Of a stretch of DNA of 64,000 bases, positions 15,905 to 21,778 are shown in pieces. The notes beneath the pieces are model-generated. The model saw only the letters and a list, made by a program, of their open reading frames with translations, made no database searches and had not been told where the DNA came from. Origin of the DNA: Oceaniovalibus guishaninsula JLT2003 (lineage in GTDB: Bacteria; Pseudomonadota; Alphaproteobacteria; Rhodobacterales; Rhodobacteraceae); NCBI RefSeq assembly GCF_000299575.1, contig NZ_AMGO01000036.1:124001-188000 (forward strand), in the 5' to 3' direction. Numbering within the stretch: the stretch's first letter is position 1; each line of letters begins with the position of its first letter. The position numbers were made by a program, and so were the translations under genes.

Positions 15905-17107
15905 CTATAGCAGCAGGCCCGGATCGCGGCCCATATCGAGACCGGGAAACACGGCGCCCTCCAGCACCGAACGGTCCAGTCCGAACAGACCGCGCATCGT
16001 CCAGGCGGCCATCGCGCGCACGTCGCGGGTCGGCATCAGGTCGCGGCGTTCGTAAAGCGCGCTTTCGGACAGGCCGGGCCAGTCGCCATACACACGCCCG
16101 CCCCGGATCGCGCCGCCGGCCATCACCGCCGCGCCGCCGGTGCCGTGATCCGTGCCCTTGCTGCCGTTCTCGCGCACCGTGCGGCCGAATTCGGTCATCG
16201 CCAGCACCACGGTCTTGTCCCAGACATCCCCCAGGCCGGCCCGCAGCGTCAGGATCGCATCGGCCAGATCGGCCACGCTGTCCTTCATGAAACGCCCCTG
16301 GTCGCGATGGGTGTCCCAGCCCTGGATCGAGAACGCCGCGATGCGCGCATCGTTGTAAAGCCGATCCGCCGCAAAGGCCGCCATCGCCGCCGTGCCGGTG
16401 CCGCCCCGCACGGCCATGCGCTGGGCCAGCATCGCGCCGCGTTCGGTGCCGGGATCGGGCGGCTCGAGCTCGGTCAGGGCAATGGCTTCGGTCGCGGTGT
16501 CGCGGAACAGCGGATCATCGTGATAGATTTCGTCCAGCAGCCGGCGGGTCTGCGATGTCAGTTTAAGTTCGGCATGCGGCGACCATTCGGCGACCCGCGC
16601 CGGCCCGATCAGCAGCTTCATCTCGCCGCTGCCGATGGCATAGGCCGTGCGCCCATCCAAATGAGGAACCGTCTGAAGCATCCGGTTCAGCCAGCCATCG
16701 CGCGGCTGCGCCATATCCATGCCCGACCCGGCCTCGAGCAGATCCTGGCCGTCGAAATGGCTGCGCTTGCCGCGATAGGGGGTCGAGACGGCCTGCATGA
16801 AGGCCAGTTGGCCCGCATCCCAAAGCGGCATCAGCGGCGCCAGCGACGGATGCGCCTCGTAGAACCCATTGAGCGGCAGCGACGCATCGCCCTGCTGACG
16901 CAGGATCCCCGAGCGCAGGGATGCGAAATCGGGATCGCCCGCGGGCTGCACAAGCCCCAGCCCATCCATAGCCCCGCGCAGGATCAGGACGACCAGCCGC
17001 GTGTCCCAGGGCGCGCTGGCGAAGGTGACGGTGGTCATCAGCGGATGCGCGGCGGCGGAACAGCCGATCAGGGCAGCGCCGCGCGACAGGAAGTTGCGTC
17101 TGTCCAT
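15905..17107 (-). CDS. DUF1501 protein with Tat signal
   Basis: 400-residue member of the DUF1501 family, structurally related to alkaline phosphatase/sulfatase folds. The N-terminus 'DRRNFLSRGAALIGCSAAA' is a twin-arginine export signal, so the mature protein is periplasmic or outside. Diagnostic segments are 'VVLILRGAMDGLGLVQP' near residues 34-50, 'IQGWDTHRDQGRFM' and 'AMTEFGRTVRENGSKGTDHGTGG' (mid to late protein, read in parts). Its start is nine bases after the DUF1800 stop, so the two form an operon; such pairs are common in Proteobacteria and have no proven biochemical role. The start codon is fixed by the Tat motif. Confidence 0.93.
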   Translation of the reverse strand: MDRRNFLSRGAALIGCSAAAHPLMTTVTFASAPWDTRLVVLILRGAMDGLGLVQPAGDPDFASLRSGILRQQGDASLPLNGFYEAHPSLAPLMPLWDAGQLAFMQAVSTPYRGKRSHFDGQDLLEAGSGMDMAQPRDGWLNRMLQTVPHLDGRTAYAIGSGEMKLLIGPARVAEWSPHAELKLTSQTRRLLDEIYHDDPLFRDTATEAIALTELEPPDPGTERGAMLAQRMAVRGGTGTAAMAAFAADRLYNDARIAAFSIQGWDTHRDQGRFMKDSVADLADAILTLRAGLGDVWDKTVVLAMTEFGRTVRENGSKGTDHGTGGAAVMAGGAIRGGRVYGDWPGLSESALYERRDLMPTRDVRAMAAWTMRGLFGLDRSVLEGAVFPGLDMGRDPGLLL

Positions 17108-17116
17108 TGCGCTCTC

Positions 17117-18484
17117 CTAGCGTCGGTTGAATTCGGGCGAGGCGACGACGAGGCCGATGCCCTGCTGCGGCGTTTCGGCGGCTTCGGCGGCGAAGCGCAA
17201 CCGTTCGCTTGCCGCATCGCCCAGCGCGACCGTCAGGAAATCGCGCGGATCGGGCAGTTGCGGCACCAGCCGGCCGGGCGCATCCATCGCCCAGCGGATA
17301 CGGAAGGCCAATCTTTGCGGGGTGATCCAGCCGCGCGGGTTTTCGGGCCAGCCATCGGGCCCCGGCGCTTGAAAGAAGGGCTGGCCCATCGCGCTCATCG
17401 GTCCGACAACCTTCTGGTCCAGCAGCCCTTCGTCCATCCGCATGATGTCCTGGCCGGTCAGGCCCAGCGCGTTCAGCGTCGAAAGCACCAGATCGAACGG
17501 CGGCTTGATCTTCGCCCGCGGGCGCGACCATGCCGCGGGATGGTCCAGCATCGCGGCATAGACGGACGGCAGGTCGCCCCCGCTGGCCTGCCACGCATCG
17601 GCCATCGCATCGACCAGATCCGCGTCGGGGTCGTCGGACACGAAATGGACGGCCAGCTTGTGCGAAATGTGGCGCGCGGTATCGGGATGAACGGCGATGT
17701 CGTCCATCGCCGCCAGAATGTCGCGGAACAGGGGGCGCGGGCCGCCATAGGTGCGGCCCAGCACGTTCTCGCCCCCCGGTTCGGCGATCTCGATATCGAA
17801 GCGGAAGCCCGTCTCGTTCGAGTAGCTGAGCCCGGTCAGCAGTTCCGCCATCTCGCGGATGTCGGTCTGGGTATAGCGGCCGCCGACGCCCAGCGTGTGC
17901 AGTTCGATGAATTCGCGGGCCAGGTTTTCGTTCAGGCCGCGCTTGCTGCCGATACCCGCGCGGGAATGGGGACCTATGGAGCTGAGCTGATCGAGATAGG
18001 TCAGCATCATCGGCTCGGTTATGACGGCCTTCAGAAGGTCCGCGAAGGGGCCAGCCATGTTGGCCGCGATCGTCTGGTCGAGAAAGCCGCCGATATAAAG
18101 CTGCTGGTCCAGCGCAGTGGTGCTGACGGTGAAATGATCGGCCCAGAACATCGTCAACCGTTGCCGGAACGGAACCTGCGAATCGAGAGCGCGCGCGACG
18201 ACCGTGCGATGGATGGTTTTCAGAAACGCGCGCTTTTCCGCACGGATAACGGCATCGCGGGCCACGGCGGCCGGGTCACCCGCCTCGACCTTCTTGCGCA
18301 TGCGGCGCAGTTCGGCCTGGTGCGAATCGACGATTTCCCTCGGCGGCAGGGGGAATGCCTGTTCCGTCGGGTCCGGGCGGCGCAGGGCATCCGCGATTCC
18401 CGATGCGGGGGGAGGCGCGCGGTCGGGCCGCAGCCCGTAACCGAAGCGGATCGCCCCCAGGGCGTCATCGTCACTGGTCGGCAT
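17117..18484 (-). CDS. DUF1800 protein
   Basis: 455-residue DUF1800 protein, the usual operon partner of DUF1501. Diagnostic pieces are 'RHISHKLAVHFVSDDPDADLV' (read in parts), 'NENLAREFIELHTLGV' and 'RMWADHF'-like 'TMFWADHFTVS' in the first half. The chosen ATG ('MPTSDDDALGAIRFGYG') has an AAAGG-type RBS; a nine-codon longer frame does not improve it. No signal peptide is visible, unlike the Tat-tagged partner, so the protein may ride through Tat bound to DUF1501 or stay inside. It reads first in the operon. Function unknown. Confidence 0.92.
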   Translation of the reverse strand: MPTSDDDALGAIRFGYGLRPDRAPPPASGIADALRRPDPTEQAFPLPPREIVDSHQAELRRMRKKVEAGDPAAVARDAVIRAEKRAFLKTIHRTVVARALDSQVPFRQRLTMFWADHFTVSTTALDQQLYIGGFLDQTIAANMAGPFADLLKAVITEPMMLTYLDQLSSIGPHSRAGIGSKRGLNENLAREFIELHTLGVGGRYTQTDIREMAELLTGLSYSNETGFRFDIEIAEPGGENVLGRTYGGPRPLFRDILAAMDDIAVHPDTARHISHKLAVHFVSDDPDADLVDAMADAWQASGGDLPSVYAAMLDHPAAWSRPRAKIKPPFDLVLSTLNALGLTGQDIMRMDEGLLDQKVVGPMSAMGQPFFQAPGPDGWPENPRGWITPQRLAFRIRWAMDAPGRLVPQLPDPRDFLTVALGDAASERLRFAAEAAETPQQGIGLVVASPEFNRR

Positions 18485-18628
18485 CACCGGCCCTTTCTGC
18501 GAACCCGGCAAGTATAGGCGACGAGGCCGGACTTGTTAAGGCGGCAGGATCGCCACGGCGGCGGCCCGTTGTCGATGTTCGCTAAATGTTTGCGTGACTT
18601 CGGGCGGAAGCCGGCCCATATATCGCAG

Positions 18629-19261
18629 ATGACGACGGATCCCGCCCAAGACCTCGCCACGTTCCTCGGACCCGACCGGTTCGGATGCGTGCTGGCCGAT
18701 CCGCCTTGGCGGTTCACCAACCGCACCGGCAAGGTCGCGCCCGAACACAAGCGCCTGTCGCGCTATCCGACGATGACGCTGGACGAGATTTGCGCCCTGC
18801 CGGTGGCCGACCATCTGGCGGATCGGGCGCATTGCTACATGTGGGTGCCCAACGCGCTGCTGCCCGACGGGTTGACGGTGCTGGACGCCTGGGGGTTCGA
18901 ATACAAGTCGAACATCGTCTGGCACAAGGTGCGCAAGGACGGCGGCAGCGACGGGCGCGGCGTGGGGTTCTATTTCCGCAATGTGACCGAGATCCTGCTG
19001 TTCGGCACGCGGGGCCGCAATGTGCGCACGCAGGCGCCGGGGCGGCGGCAGGTCAACATGATCCAGACCCGCAAGCGCGAACATTCGCGCAAGCCGGACG
19101 AACAATACCGGCTGATCGAGGATTGTTCGTGGGGACCGTATCTGGAGCTGTTCGGCCGCGGCATCCGCGACGGCTGGACCGTCTGGGGCAATCAGGCCGA
19201 TGCGGACTGGAAGCCGGACTGGAAGACCTACGCCTACAACTCGTCGCTGGCGGCGGAATAG
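18629..19261 (+). CDS. MT-A70-family adenine-N6 methyltransferase
   Basis: 210-residue SAM-dependent methyltransferase of the MT-A70/IME4 superfamily, which includes bacterial DNA m6A methylases such as M.MunI-like enzymes. The catalytic motif IV is 'LADPPWRF' with DPPW at residues 24-27. 'NALLPDGLTVLDAWGFEYK' and 'FRNVTEILLFGTRG' follow, also family-typical. The start is uncertain: 18629 begins just before the conserved core, while in-frame ATGs at 18575 and 18533 would add N-terminal residues; none has a good RBS. It faces the BglII-like endonuclease gene with one base between the stop codons. I infer that it protects that enzyme's recognition site. Confidence 0.88.
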   Translation: MTTDPAQDLATFLGPDRFGCVLADPPWRFTNRTGKVAPEHKRLSRYPTMTLDEICALPVADHLADRAHCYMWVPNALLPDGLTVLDAWGFEYKSNIVWHKVRKDGGSDGRGVGFYFRNVTEILLFGTRGRNVRTQAPGRRQVNMIQTRKREHSRKPDEQYRLIEDCSWGPYLELFGRGIRDGWTVWGNQADADWKPDWKTYAYNSSLAAE

Positions 19262-19262
19262 G

Positions 19263-20000
19263 TCACGGCTCGTCGGTCAGGATCGCGTCCGGCAGCCCAA
19301 TCAGCAGCAGCGGACAGGGATTGCCGACGCCGCGCGTCACCCGCGCTTCCAGTTTGGCCCAGTGGGTCGTCGCCTGACCGAACTTGTCGGCGGCGAACTT
19401 GCGCGCGAAGGCGTCGGCGAACGGCACGCCGCGGGCGACCTGCTTGGCGACGTGACGGCGCTGGGTGCCGGTGCGCGCGCCGATGCCCAGCCGGTCCAGA
19501 TCGGCCTCGGAGCCCAGGCCGCGCCGCTGCATCCAGTCGCGGATCCGGGTCGGCAGGCGGGCCTGCATCGACGCGCCGCGCGTCACGACGATGCCAAGGC
19601 TGATGGCCGACAAGGCATGCAGGCGCTGAAAGTTCTCGAGATCGCGGTCGAAGAACGGATCCTTGTTGTTCCATTCGATTTCCAGCGCCAGCGCGCCCTG
19701 CGGGGCGAACAGGACGTGATCGACCTCGTGGCTGACGCCTTCGCGCGGGGTGCCGTCCACGACGATCTGCACGGCGAAATTGTGCTTGCGCCAGCCCAGA
19801 TGCGACAGCGCGCGACGCAGGCGCTGGGTCTGACCGCTTTCGCCGCCGCCGCCGCCGATCAGTTCGGCCATGCCGATGCGGTAATCGGCCAAGACGCCGG
19901 CCAGCGCGGCGGTCTCGTCCGCGAAATCGTGCGACAGGATGGCGTCGGCGTGGTTGCGCGTCAGGATGTCGAAGCCCCGCGCGCGCAATTCCGCCAGCAC
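19263..20000 (-). CDS. BglII/BstYI-like type II restriction endonuclease
   Basis: 245-residue candidate nuclease. The central 'HEVDHVLF...ALEIEWNNKDPFFDRDL' region resembles the catalytic core of the BglII/BstYI family: Asp94 followed by Glu107-x-Glu109 in a PD-(D/E)xK-type arrangement, then Asp114, Asp118 and Asp120. A Gly-rich stretch lies near residues 49-54. Start: GTG with GAGGGA nine bases upstream, five bases after the aspS stop; no ATG fits. It converges on the MT-A70 gene. Base composition resembles the neighbours. Family assignment is from memory of the 'EWNNKDPFFDRDL' signature; recognition sequence unknown. Confidence 0.75.
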   Translation of the reverse strand: MLAELRARGFDILTRNHADAILSHDFADETAALAGVLADYRIGMAELIGGGGGESGQTQRLRRALSHLGWRKHNFAVQIVVDGTPREGVSHEVDHVLFAPQGALALEIEWNNKDPFFDRDLENFQRLHALSAISLGIVVTRGASMQARLPTRIRDWMQRRGLGSEADLDRLGIGARTGTQRRHVAKQVARGVPFADAFARKFAADKFGQATTHWAKLEARVTRGVGNPCPLLLIGLPDAILTDEP

Positions 20001-20005
20001 CGGCG

Positions 20006-21778
20006 CTAGTCCCTCGGCAGAACCCGGATCCCGAGATCGCGCAACTGCGCCGGGGTCGGGTCGGACGGCGCGCCCATCATCAGATCCTCGGCCTGCTGGT
20101 TCATCGGAAACATGATTACCTCGCGGATGTTCGCCTCGTCCGCCAGCAGCATGACCATGCGGTCGATGCCCGCGGCGCAACCCCCGTGCGGCGGCGCGCC
20201 ATAGGTAAAGGCGTTGACCATCCCGCCGAAGCGGCGGCGCACCTCGTCCTCGCCATAGCCCGCGATCTCGAACGCCTTGAACATGATCTCGGGCTGGTGG
20301 TTGCGGATGGCGCCGCTGATCAGCTCGTATCCATTGCAGGCCAGATCGTACTGGTAGCCCAGCACCTTCAGCGGATCGCCCTGCAACGCGTCCATGCCCC
20401 CCTGCGGCATGGAAAAGGGGTTGTGGCTGAAGTCGATGGCGCCGTCGTCGGTCCGTTCGAACATCGGAAAATCGACGATCCAGGCGAATGCGAAACGGTC
20501 TTCGTCGATCAGGCCCAGTTCCTGCCCGATGACAGTCCGCGCGCGGCCCGCGACGCCCTCGAAATCCTCGGGCCGTCCGCCCAGGAAGAACGCGGCGTCG
20601 CCCACGCCGAGGCAGAGCTGCTGGCGGATGGCTTCTGTCCGTTCGGGGCCGATATTCTTGGCGAGGGGGCCGGCCGCTTCGACGTCGCCCGCATTGTCCC
20701 GCCAGAAGATATACCCCATCCCCGGCAGGCCCTGTTCCTGCGCGAACTTGTTCATGCGGTCGCAGAACTTGCGCGAACCGCCGCCGGGGGCGGGGATGGC
20801 GCGCACTTCGGTGCCCGGCTTTTCCAGCAGGTTGGCGAAGATGGCGAAACCGCTGCCGCGGAAATGGTCGCTGACGACCTGCATCTCGATCGGGTTGCGC
20901 AGATCCGGCTTGTCGGTGCCGTATTTCAGCGCGCTGTCGGCATAGGAGATCAGCGGCCAGTCGGCATCGACCTTGCGGCCCTCGCCGAAACGCTCGAAAC
21001 AGCCCTGGATGACCGGCTGGATCGTGGCGAACACGTCTTCCTGCGTCACGAACGACATTTCCATGTCGAGCTGATAGAAATCGGTGGGCGAGCGGTCGGC
21101 GCGCGGATCCTCGTCGCGGAAACACGGCGCGATCTGAAAATACTTGTCGAAGCCCGACACCATGATCAGCTGCTTGAACTGCTGCGGGGCCTGCGGCAGC
21201 GCATAGAACTTGCCCGGATGCAGGCGCGACGGCACCAGGAAATCGCGCGCGCCCTCGGGGCTGGATGCGGTCAGAATCGGCGTCTGGTATTCGTTGAACC
21301 CCTGCCCCCACATGCGTTCGCGCAGGTCGCGCACCACGTCCGACCGCAGCACCATGTTGTCGTGCAGCCCCTGCCGCCGCAGATCGAGGAAGCGGTAGCG
21401 CAGGCGCGTTTCCTCGGGATAGTCCTGTTCGCCGAAGACGGGCAGCGGCAGCTCGGCCGCCTTGCCCAGAACGTCGATCTCGCGCACGAAAACCTCGATC
21501 TCGCCCGTGGGAATCTTGGGGTTGACCAGCGACGGATCGCGCTTCTTCACGGTCCCCGCGATGCTGACGCACCATTCCGACCGGACCTTCTCGACCTCGG
21601 GGAAGGCGGGGGAGTCGGGGTCGCAGATCAGCTGCGTCATGCCGTAGTGGTCGCGCAGGTCGATGAACAGCACGCCACCGTGGTCGCGCACGCGATGCAC
21701 CCAACCCGCCAGCCGGACATCGTTTCCGGCATCCGAGGCGTCCAGATCGGCGCAGGTCCGGGTGCGATAGGGGTTCAT
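20006..21778 (-). CDS. aspS: Aspartyl-tRNA synthetase
   Basis: 590-residue class II synthetase of the bacterial type. In order: OB-fold anticodon domain ('[18 protein letters not shown]' near residues 22-39), motif 2 ('[19 protein letters not shown]', residues ~215-235), the inserted GAD domain, and motif 3 ('[19 protein letters not shown]') near the end. The wording '[12 protein letters not shown]' in place of the gamma-proteobacterial 'ADRQPEFTQID' is typical of alphaproteobacterial enzymes, many of which also charge tRNA-Asn; whether this one is non-discriminating depends on the rest of the genome. AAGGA seven bases before the ATG confirms the start. It probably shares a transcript with the nuclease gene. 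Confidence 0.96.

Follow-up and report, generated by a model that had tools for sequence, protein, structure and literature searches.

Organization of the Locus

The window, the whole 64-kb stretch of DNA that was analysed, lies on a contig of 226 kb and carries, behind aspS, a pair of convergent genes at positions 18629–20000. The plus-strand gene (18629..19261) opens with ATG at 18629, closes with a stop codon at 19259–19261, and encodes a predicted MT-A70 family DNA adenine methyltransferase of 210 residues. The minus-strand gene (19263..20000), which starts with GTG at 20000 and stops at 19263–19265, encodes a predicted BglII/BstYI-family restriction endonuclease of 245 residues. An earlier note on this DNA had placed the two stop codons one base apart and the GTG five bases past the aspS stop, and both readings hold: base 19262 separates the stops, and a gap of five bases (20001..20005, minus strand) runs from the aspS stop to the nuclease start. 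The aspS gene itself (20006..21778, minus strand) is identified as aspartate--tRNA ligase by NCBIfam model NF001750 (E 5.3e-234, the scanned stretch starting one codon 5′ of the ATG) and forms a genomic anchor outside the candidate restriction-modification system.

The base composition of the pair is not foreign, as had been suggested, with a G+C content of 0.65–0.70 lying within the flank range of 0.62–0.74. A promoter/terminator scan returned a single promoter-like site, directed away from the pair, and no terminator. On the other side of the methylase, genes encoding DUF1501 and DUF1800 proteins sit side by side and adjoin it (window 15905–18511, minus strand).

Methylase Identity

The methylase matches PF05063 over the entire Pfam model (positions 1–172 of 172) with an E value of 2.2e-28 and 99.8 bits, against a gathering cut-off of 23.9. 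The DPPW motif is present and intact at residues 24–27, which, together with the MT-A70 family match, bears out the earlier assignment as an adenine methyltransferase; DPPW is also found in 109 of the 110 methylase ORFs of the compared loci, some genes being counted twice. Two PADLOC Type II methyltransferase models are matched, PDLC03221 at 9.6e-90 and PDLC03262 at 3.5e-72. A search of NCBIfam gave no match for either the methylase or the nuclease.

The methylase is likened, by description rather than by the MunI sequence, to the M.MunI group, which is said to consist of prokaryotic DNA methylases related to MT-A70. In PMC2630997, this group of MT-A70-related DNA methylases is given a one-line mention with a citation of Bujnicki 2002. 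A link to NruI/Sbo13I was considered and dropped, the methylases there being placed, in PMC2890505, in a gamma subgroup with DPPY.

Nuclease Family, Predicted Fold and Putative Active Site

The nuclease matches PF09195 (Endonuc-BglII), the Pfam family named for BglII, along model positions 1–162 of 163 (E 6.2e-22, 78.5 bits against a gathering cut-off of 26). A structural model reached a mean pLDDT of 93.8; it was built from 56 aligned nucleases, made up of the window's own, 45 of the 80 contig-search relatives and 10 taken from whole genomes. Its best Foldseek match is BstYI (1vrr, E 1.9e-5, TM 0.51/0.60), with further matches to BamHI (1bhm, 5.1e-4) and OkrAI (3odh, 3e-3), so that the likeness to BglII, BstYI, BamHI and OkrAI lies in the predicted fold and the Pfam family; the fold matches to solved nucleases have TM values of about 0.5–0.6, and the window nuclease is only about 10% identical to BstYI, BamHI and OkrAI. 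The family match and the BstYI/BamHI-like predicted fold sustain the BglII/BstYI resemblance proposed from the letters alone. The earlier note had also called for a structure prediction and named the absence of any PD-(D/E)xK fold as grounds for giving up its reading; the prediction instead gives a known restriction-nuclease fold. By sequence, solved BglII/BstYI chains were not matched by the nuclease, the nuclease alignment searched against solved structures returned only four weak matches to unrelated proteins (E 0.47–1), and PADLOC and PHROGs contained no match for the nuclease.

D94, E107 and E109, together with the block EWNNKDPFFDRDL, are all present in the nuclease as originally described. 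Across the 56 aligned nucleases, 21 columns are invariant, including H91, D94, E109, W110, N111, K113, D114 and D118-R119-D120-L121, and this invariance is taken to reflect purifying selection on the nuclease family. In the putative acidic metal site, of the pattern D...[E/D]xE/Q, D94 and E109 are invariant and E107 is at least 90% conserved in the 56 rows, the site being assigned by pattern rather than by superposition on BglII or BamHI. BglII has ExQ and BamHI ExE, and both have N4-cytosine methylases. The D...ExE of the window nuclease would suit an active site of BamHI type, and its residues may be equivalent to those of BglII and BamHI.

Linkage of Methylase and Nuclease in Relatives

A nuclease-first search confirmed at least 521 relatives in species genomes, of which the best 80 were kept; this set is all class A by choice, because the query nuclease is class A (see below). 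All 80 nucleases are ORFs of 242–281 residues, and a methylase homologue is present in the examined locus of every one of these best 80 of at least 521. Their layouts comprise 75 convergent pairs, 3 tandem methylase-nuclease pairs, 1 divergent pair and 1 tandem pair separated by 6.7 kb.

A whole-genome search of 146 genomes, the window's included (nuclease E ≤ 0.001, methylase E ≤ 1e-30), returned a nuclease match in 15, a methylase match in 17 and both in 13. A methylase at least 60% identical occurs in 14 of the 146, and 13 of these also hold a nuclease match. A nuclease match accompanied by no methylase at 1e-30 was seen in G122 (E 1.1e-16) and G073 (weak, 2.8e-4), and a methylase match accompanied by no nuclease match in G121, plus more distant methylases in G103, G104 and G140. 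One of the 13 genomes with a methylase of at least 60% identity and a nuclease match, G138, has about 130 kb between the two genes, with the methylase at C2:1385267 and the BglII-type nuclease match, a weak one (E 6.8e-6), at C2:1517099; CTGCAG is very scarce in this genome, with 64 copies in 6.5 Mb.

Searching from the methylase in 394 genomes of the same family gave 60 positive genomes (E ≤ 1e-50) and 61 places. A PF09195-type nuclease lies in the examined flank of 50 places, a count that includes G063 (6.7 kb apart), G366 (a nuclease piece at the stretch end), G413 (methylase cut by a contig end) and G285 (methylase with an internal stop). Among the other 11, an HNH endonuclease directly follows the methylase in G298, G299 and G396, identified by Pfam HNH_2 in G299 and G396 and, in G298, by 63% identity to the G299 nuclease. 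The remaining eight comprise G304, where the methylase is cut at the contig edge; G236, where it is in pieces; G295, where it is about 50% identical; G148 and G276, with only 1.5 kb of flank each; and G239, G264 and the second copy in G296, whose flanks (one side as short as 1.2 kb) gave no class A, B, C or HNH match. Judged by sequence, the methylase-HNH loci are a sister system with an unrelated nuclease.

The pair thus recurs across genera (80/80 nuclease-first, 50/61 methylase-first), where the earlier note had proposed a co-occurrence check and would have yielded to homologues never found together. Its description of the pairing as unusual is not supported, since the BglII-type nuclease is the usual partner of this methylase family and NCBI labels such neighbours: adjacent genes are annotated there as 'MT-A70 family methyltransferase' and 'BglII/BstYI family type II restriction endonuclease'. 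Because that annotation names both genes side by side, the window's pair belongs to a kind already known.

The HNH systems (L225:3167-5168, L228:4498-6487 and L247:2942-4929) consist of an MT-A70 methylase followed in tandem by an HNH endonuclease of 430–438 residues, and in the two of these endonucleases scanned with NCBIfam the C-terminal part is weakly like phosphorothioated-DNA restriction endonucleases, below the model cut-off. Decayed-looking methylase pieces lie behind aspS at L250:4320-4929 (G236), and class B nuclease pieces, likewise decayed-looking, adjoin an open methylase at L259:5055-5456 (G121).

Nuclease Subfamilies

Three nuclease classes are distinguished: A, which includes the window's; B (189–197 residues in four members); and C (222–281 residues in five members). 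For complete members the best and second-best class profiles lie more than 100 bits apart, some members having built the profiles. A core of EWN-[NS]-KD...DRDL is common to the tested members of all three classes, and PF09195 is matched by every member tested in Pfam, namely two of class C (G003, G012), one of class B (G023) and one further of class A (G091). On a nuclease tree of 54 rows, from which the fragments G366 and G121 were dropped and in which long branches were flagged, A and C each form one side of a 100/100 branch, and B is not one clade. Gene order follows class across the 61 places: A is convergent in 29 of 32, B is nuclease-then-methylase in 13 of 13, and C is methylase-then-nuclease in 4 of 5.

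The methylase tree covers 64 of 68 places (61 from the family and 7 others), four of fewer than 180 residues having been dropped. The three classes require 8 changes on it. This number stays the same when four rows, long or distant, are removed, and becomes 10 if HNH is then counted as a further state, the respective minima being 2 and 3; with shuffled labels the mean is 21 changes, so that the classes also show clustering on this tree. Class C alone (seven rows) requires 6 or 7 changes on the full and reduced trees, respectively. Support on the methylase tree is weak for many branches (18/61 and 19/57 starred), but the starred branches alone force 6 changes for C and 6 for A.

The simplest cases of exchange, within the window's own genus, stand independently of the tree. 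Specifically, G003 and G012 carry methylases 89–90% identical to the window's, yet their nucleases are of class C, with identities to the window nuclease of 29% and 24% by tblastn and 32% and 26% by alignment, respectively. Additionally, the class C nuclease of G071 occupies the slot that class A occupies in the window: it begins right after aspS terminates, and 2 bases separate its end from the methylase stop. Among the nucleases it is nearest to those of G389 and G027 (support 93/65), which belong to tandem systems whose methylases share about 71–72% identity with the window's and whose examined stretches contain no aspS.

The aspS Anchor

The adjacency of nuclease and aspS reported for the window is recurrent. 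Among the best 80 nuclease relatives (of at least 521), 51 have aspS upstream on the strand of the nuclease, and in 33 it overlaps the nuclease or comes within 23 bases of it; in some of the remaining 29 loci the contig breaks off a short way from the nuclease (e.g. L084, L093). In the 45 loci where all three genes are long enough, median identities are 0.84 for the methylase, 0.61 for the nuclease and 0.84 for aspS, and distances correlate at r 0.53 between methylase and aspS, 0.40 between methylase and nuclease and 0.34 between nuclease and aspS, values never reached in 2000 permutations. These sequence distances fit a long residence with some exchange, and both vertical descent and recombination of the whole aspS region would be compatible with them. 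Presence is patchy, the methylase being found in 4 of the 14 searched genomes of the window's genus (G000, G003, G010 and G012).

Recognition-Site Search by Avoidance

Avoidance in the window's own genome, in other genomes and between methylase-bearing and methylase-free sets yielded no inferable recognition site for the pair. Palindromic hexamers are strongly avoided in general in G000, the window's own genome. When the hexamers in 442 kb of it are ranked by z, palindromes take every one of the 25 most avoided places, the lowest O/E values belonging to CCCGGG (0.03), CTGCAG (0.06) and ATCGAT (0.08). CTGCAG is absent from the 64-kb window, where about 30 are expected, and occurs only 107 times in 2.9 Mb of the own genome, clustered in places among the sites listed. 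It was rejected as the site: it is rare in methylase-bearing G000, G138 and G023, but not in G003 and G012, whose methylases are so close to the window's, and it is rare too in genomes with no methylase match (e.g. G028, G044 and G099).

Hexamers were also contrasted between 79 methylase-bearing sets and 35 methylase-free stretches, an unbalanced comparison in which the bearing stretches lie mostly around the pair and the controls at contig starts, 11 of 80 relatives' loci and 5 of 40 control stretches of less than 9 kb being excluded. Of the well-populated hexamers, ATCGAT differed most between the two groups (O/E 0.33 vs 0.53, p 0.0009 before correction for 64 tests), and GATATC gave a lower p (0.0005) with a weak effect. 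As a candidate site ATCGAT was set aside, its whole-genome counts not being low in methylase-bearing G003, G010, G027, G091 and G127. TNTANA, which had the lowest p of 421 patterns (80 sets, the own included, vs 35), was taken as noise.

Interpretation and Alternative Explanations

On sequence and predicted structure, the pair is very probably a type II restriction-modification system, a reading already put forward in the earlier note and now supported by both family matches, the BstYI/BamHI-like predicted fold and the recurrent linkage across genera. Three features of a type II system are found together here, namely a methylase with an intact motif, a separate nuclease of known fold and conserved physical linkage. 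The MT-A70 enzyme would methylate an adenine at N6 within a short DNA site, probably a palindrome, and the BglII/BstYI-type nuclease, acting as a dimer, would cut the same site when unmethylated through the putative D94/E107-x-E109 metal site. Unmethylated incoming phage or plasmid DNA would be destroyed and the host genome spared. The nuclease is likely co-transcribed with aspS, probably being expressed as the tail of that transcript, and the methylase would be transcribed towards it from the other side. Nothing in these analyses speaks for the epigenetic switch that the earlier note had also offered.

Two other accounts of the pair are far less probable. The window could hold a former restriction-modification system whose nuclease is inactive or silent and whose methylase is now an orphan epigenetic mark, and some relatives lend this a degree of plausibility: a methylase stands near aspS with no nuclease found in G239 and G276 (the latter with 1.5 kb of flank), the methylase is in pieces in G236, nuclease pieces lie by the open methylase of G121, and nucleases diverge faster than methylases (the median identities of 0.61 and 0.84 at the 45 loci). 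In the window, however, the nuclease ORF is open and retains all 21 invariant residues, which makes such decay here improbable. Scarcely credible is an MT-A70 protein that methylates RNA like METTL3, with the adjacent nuclease incidental. The solved structures matched by the methylase sequence do mostly bear the names MT-A70, METTL3 or METTL14, several being named RNA methyltransferases; yet the fit to the PADLOC Type II methyltransferase models is far closer (9.6e-90), and a restriction-type nuclease is linked in all of the best 80 nuclease-first loci (of at least 521) and, among the 61 methylase-first places, as a BglII-type enzyme in 50 and an HNH enzyme in 3.

With regard to the evolution of the restriction-modification pair, the methylase is probably the stable half, anchored behind aspS in many genera of one family, and the nuclease an exchangeable cartridge, which has come from any of three BglII-type subfamilies, each with its own layout, or from an unrelated HNH type, with one swap or more made in situ in the slot that separates aspS from the methylase. 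It is rather unlikely that subfamilies A, B and C were never swapped and simply diverged in place beside a slowly evolving methylase. Their common core and shared PF09195 matches, the faster evolution of the nucleases and the many weak branches of the methylase tree are all in keeping with divergence in place, whereas the 100/100 branches that split off A and C, set against the 6 or 7 methylase-tree changes needed for C and the 8 for the three classes, speak for exchange, as do the shift of gene orientation with subfamily and the presence of an unrelated HNH nuclease in three systems.

While the window pair is in itself one more type II system, exchange of the nuclease among its relatives is less expected. 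A methylase family whose members are 63–90% identical to the window's in paired systems and which is found with at least four nuclease types amounts to a natural experiment. If the methylase specificity is unchanged, the nucleases would be isospecific, a state reached from different sequences and folds; one methylome could then predict the site of all paired nuclease types, and the nucleases could reveal how different proteins arrive at one specificity. The locus also presents a restriction-modification system that would ride by an essential gene, aspS, in many genera.

Related Pairs on Plasmids and Phages

Among the papers listed by a literature search that covered few subscription journals, none described an MT-A70/BglII-type restriction-modification pair or nuclease exchange, and a search on the active-site residues of BamHI and BglII gave nothing relevant. 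In sequence records, the same two families occur on a Rhizobium sp. B230/85 plasmid (NZ_CP072159.1), where the pair is convergent with no gap, and on a Xanthomonas citri plasmid (NZ_CP011164.1). These pairs are plasmid-borne, with nucleases 52–54% identical to the window's, whereas the window pair lies behind aspS. Mesorhizobium phage vB_MloP_Lo5R7ANS and Nitratiruptor phages NrS-2 and NrS-3 encode methylases 68–69% identical to the window's with a BglII-type nuclease match adjoining. The phage nucleases are more distant, at 30% identity for the NrS phages and 37% over part of the length for Lo5R7ANS, and the tandem nuclease-methylase order of Lo5R7ANS is unlike the convergent arrangement of the window pair.

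Taken together, the plasmid and phage records suggest that the family of pairs is mobile, as expected for mobile restriction-modification systems. Nuclease matches with an adjoining methylase occur in five phage records; two of these are versions of the same phage, and another is a short metagenomic record that carries no annotation. Nuclease matches also come from 9 plasmid records (5 predicted to be conjugative), and among the plasmid-borne pairs one plasmid is typed conjugative.
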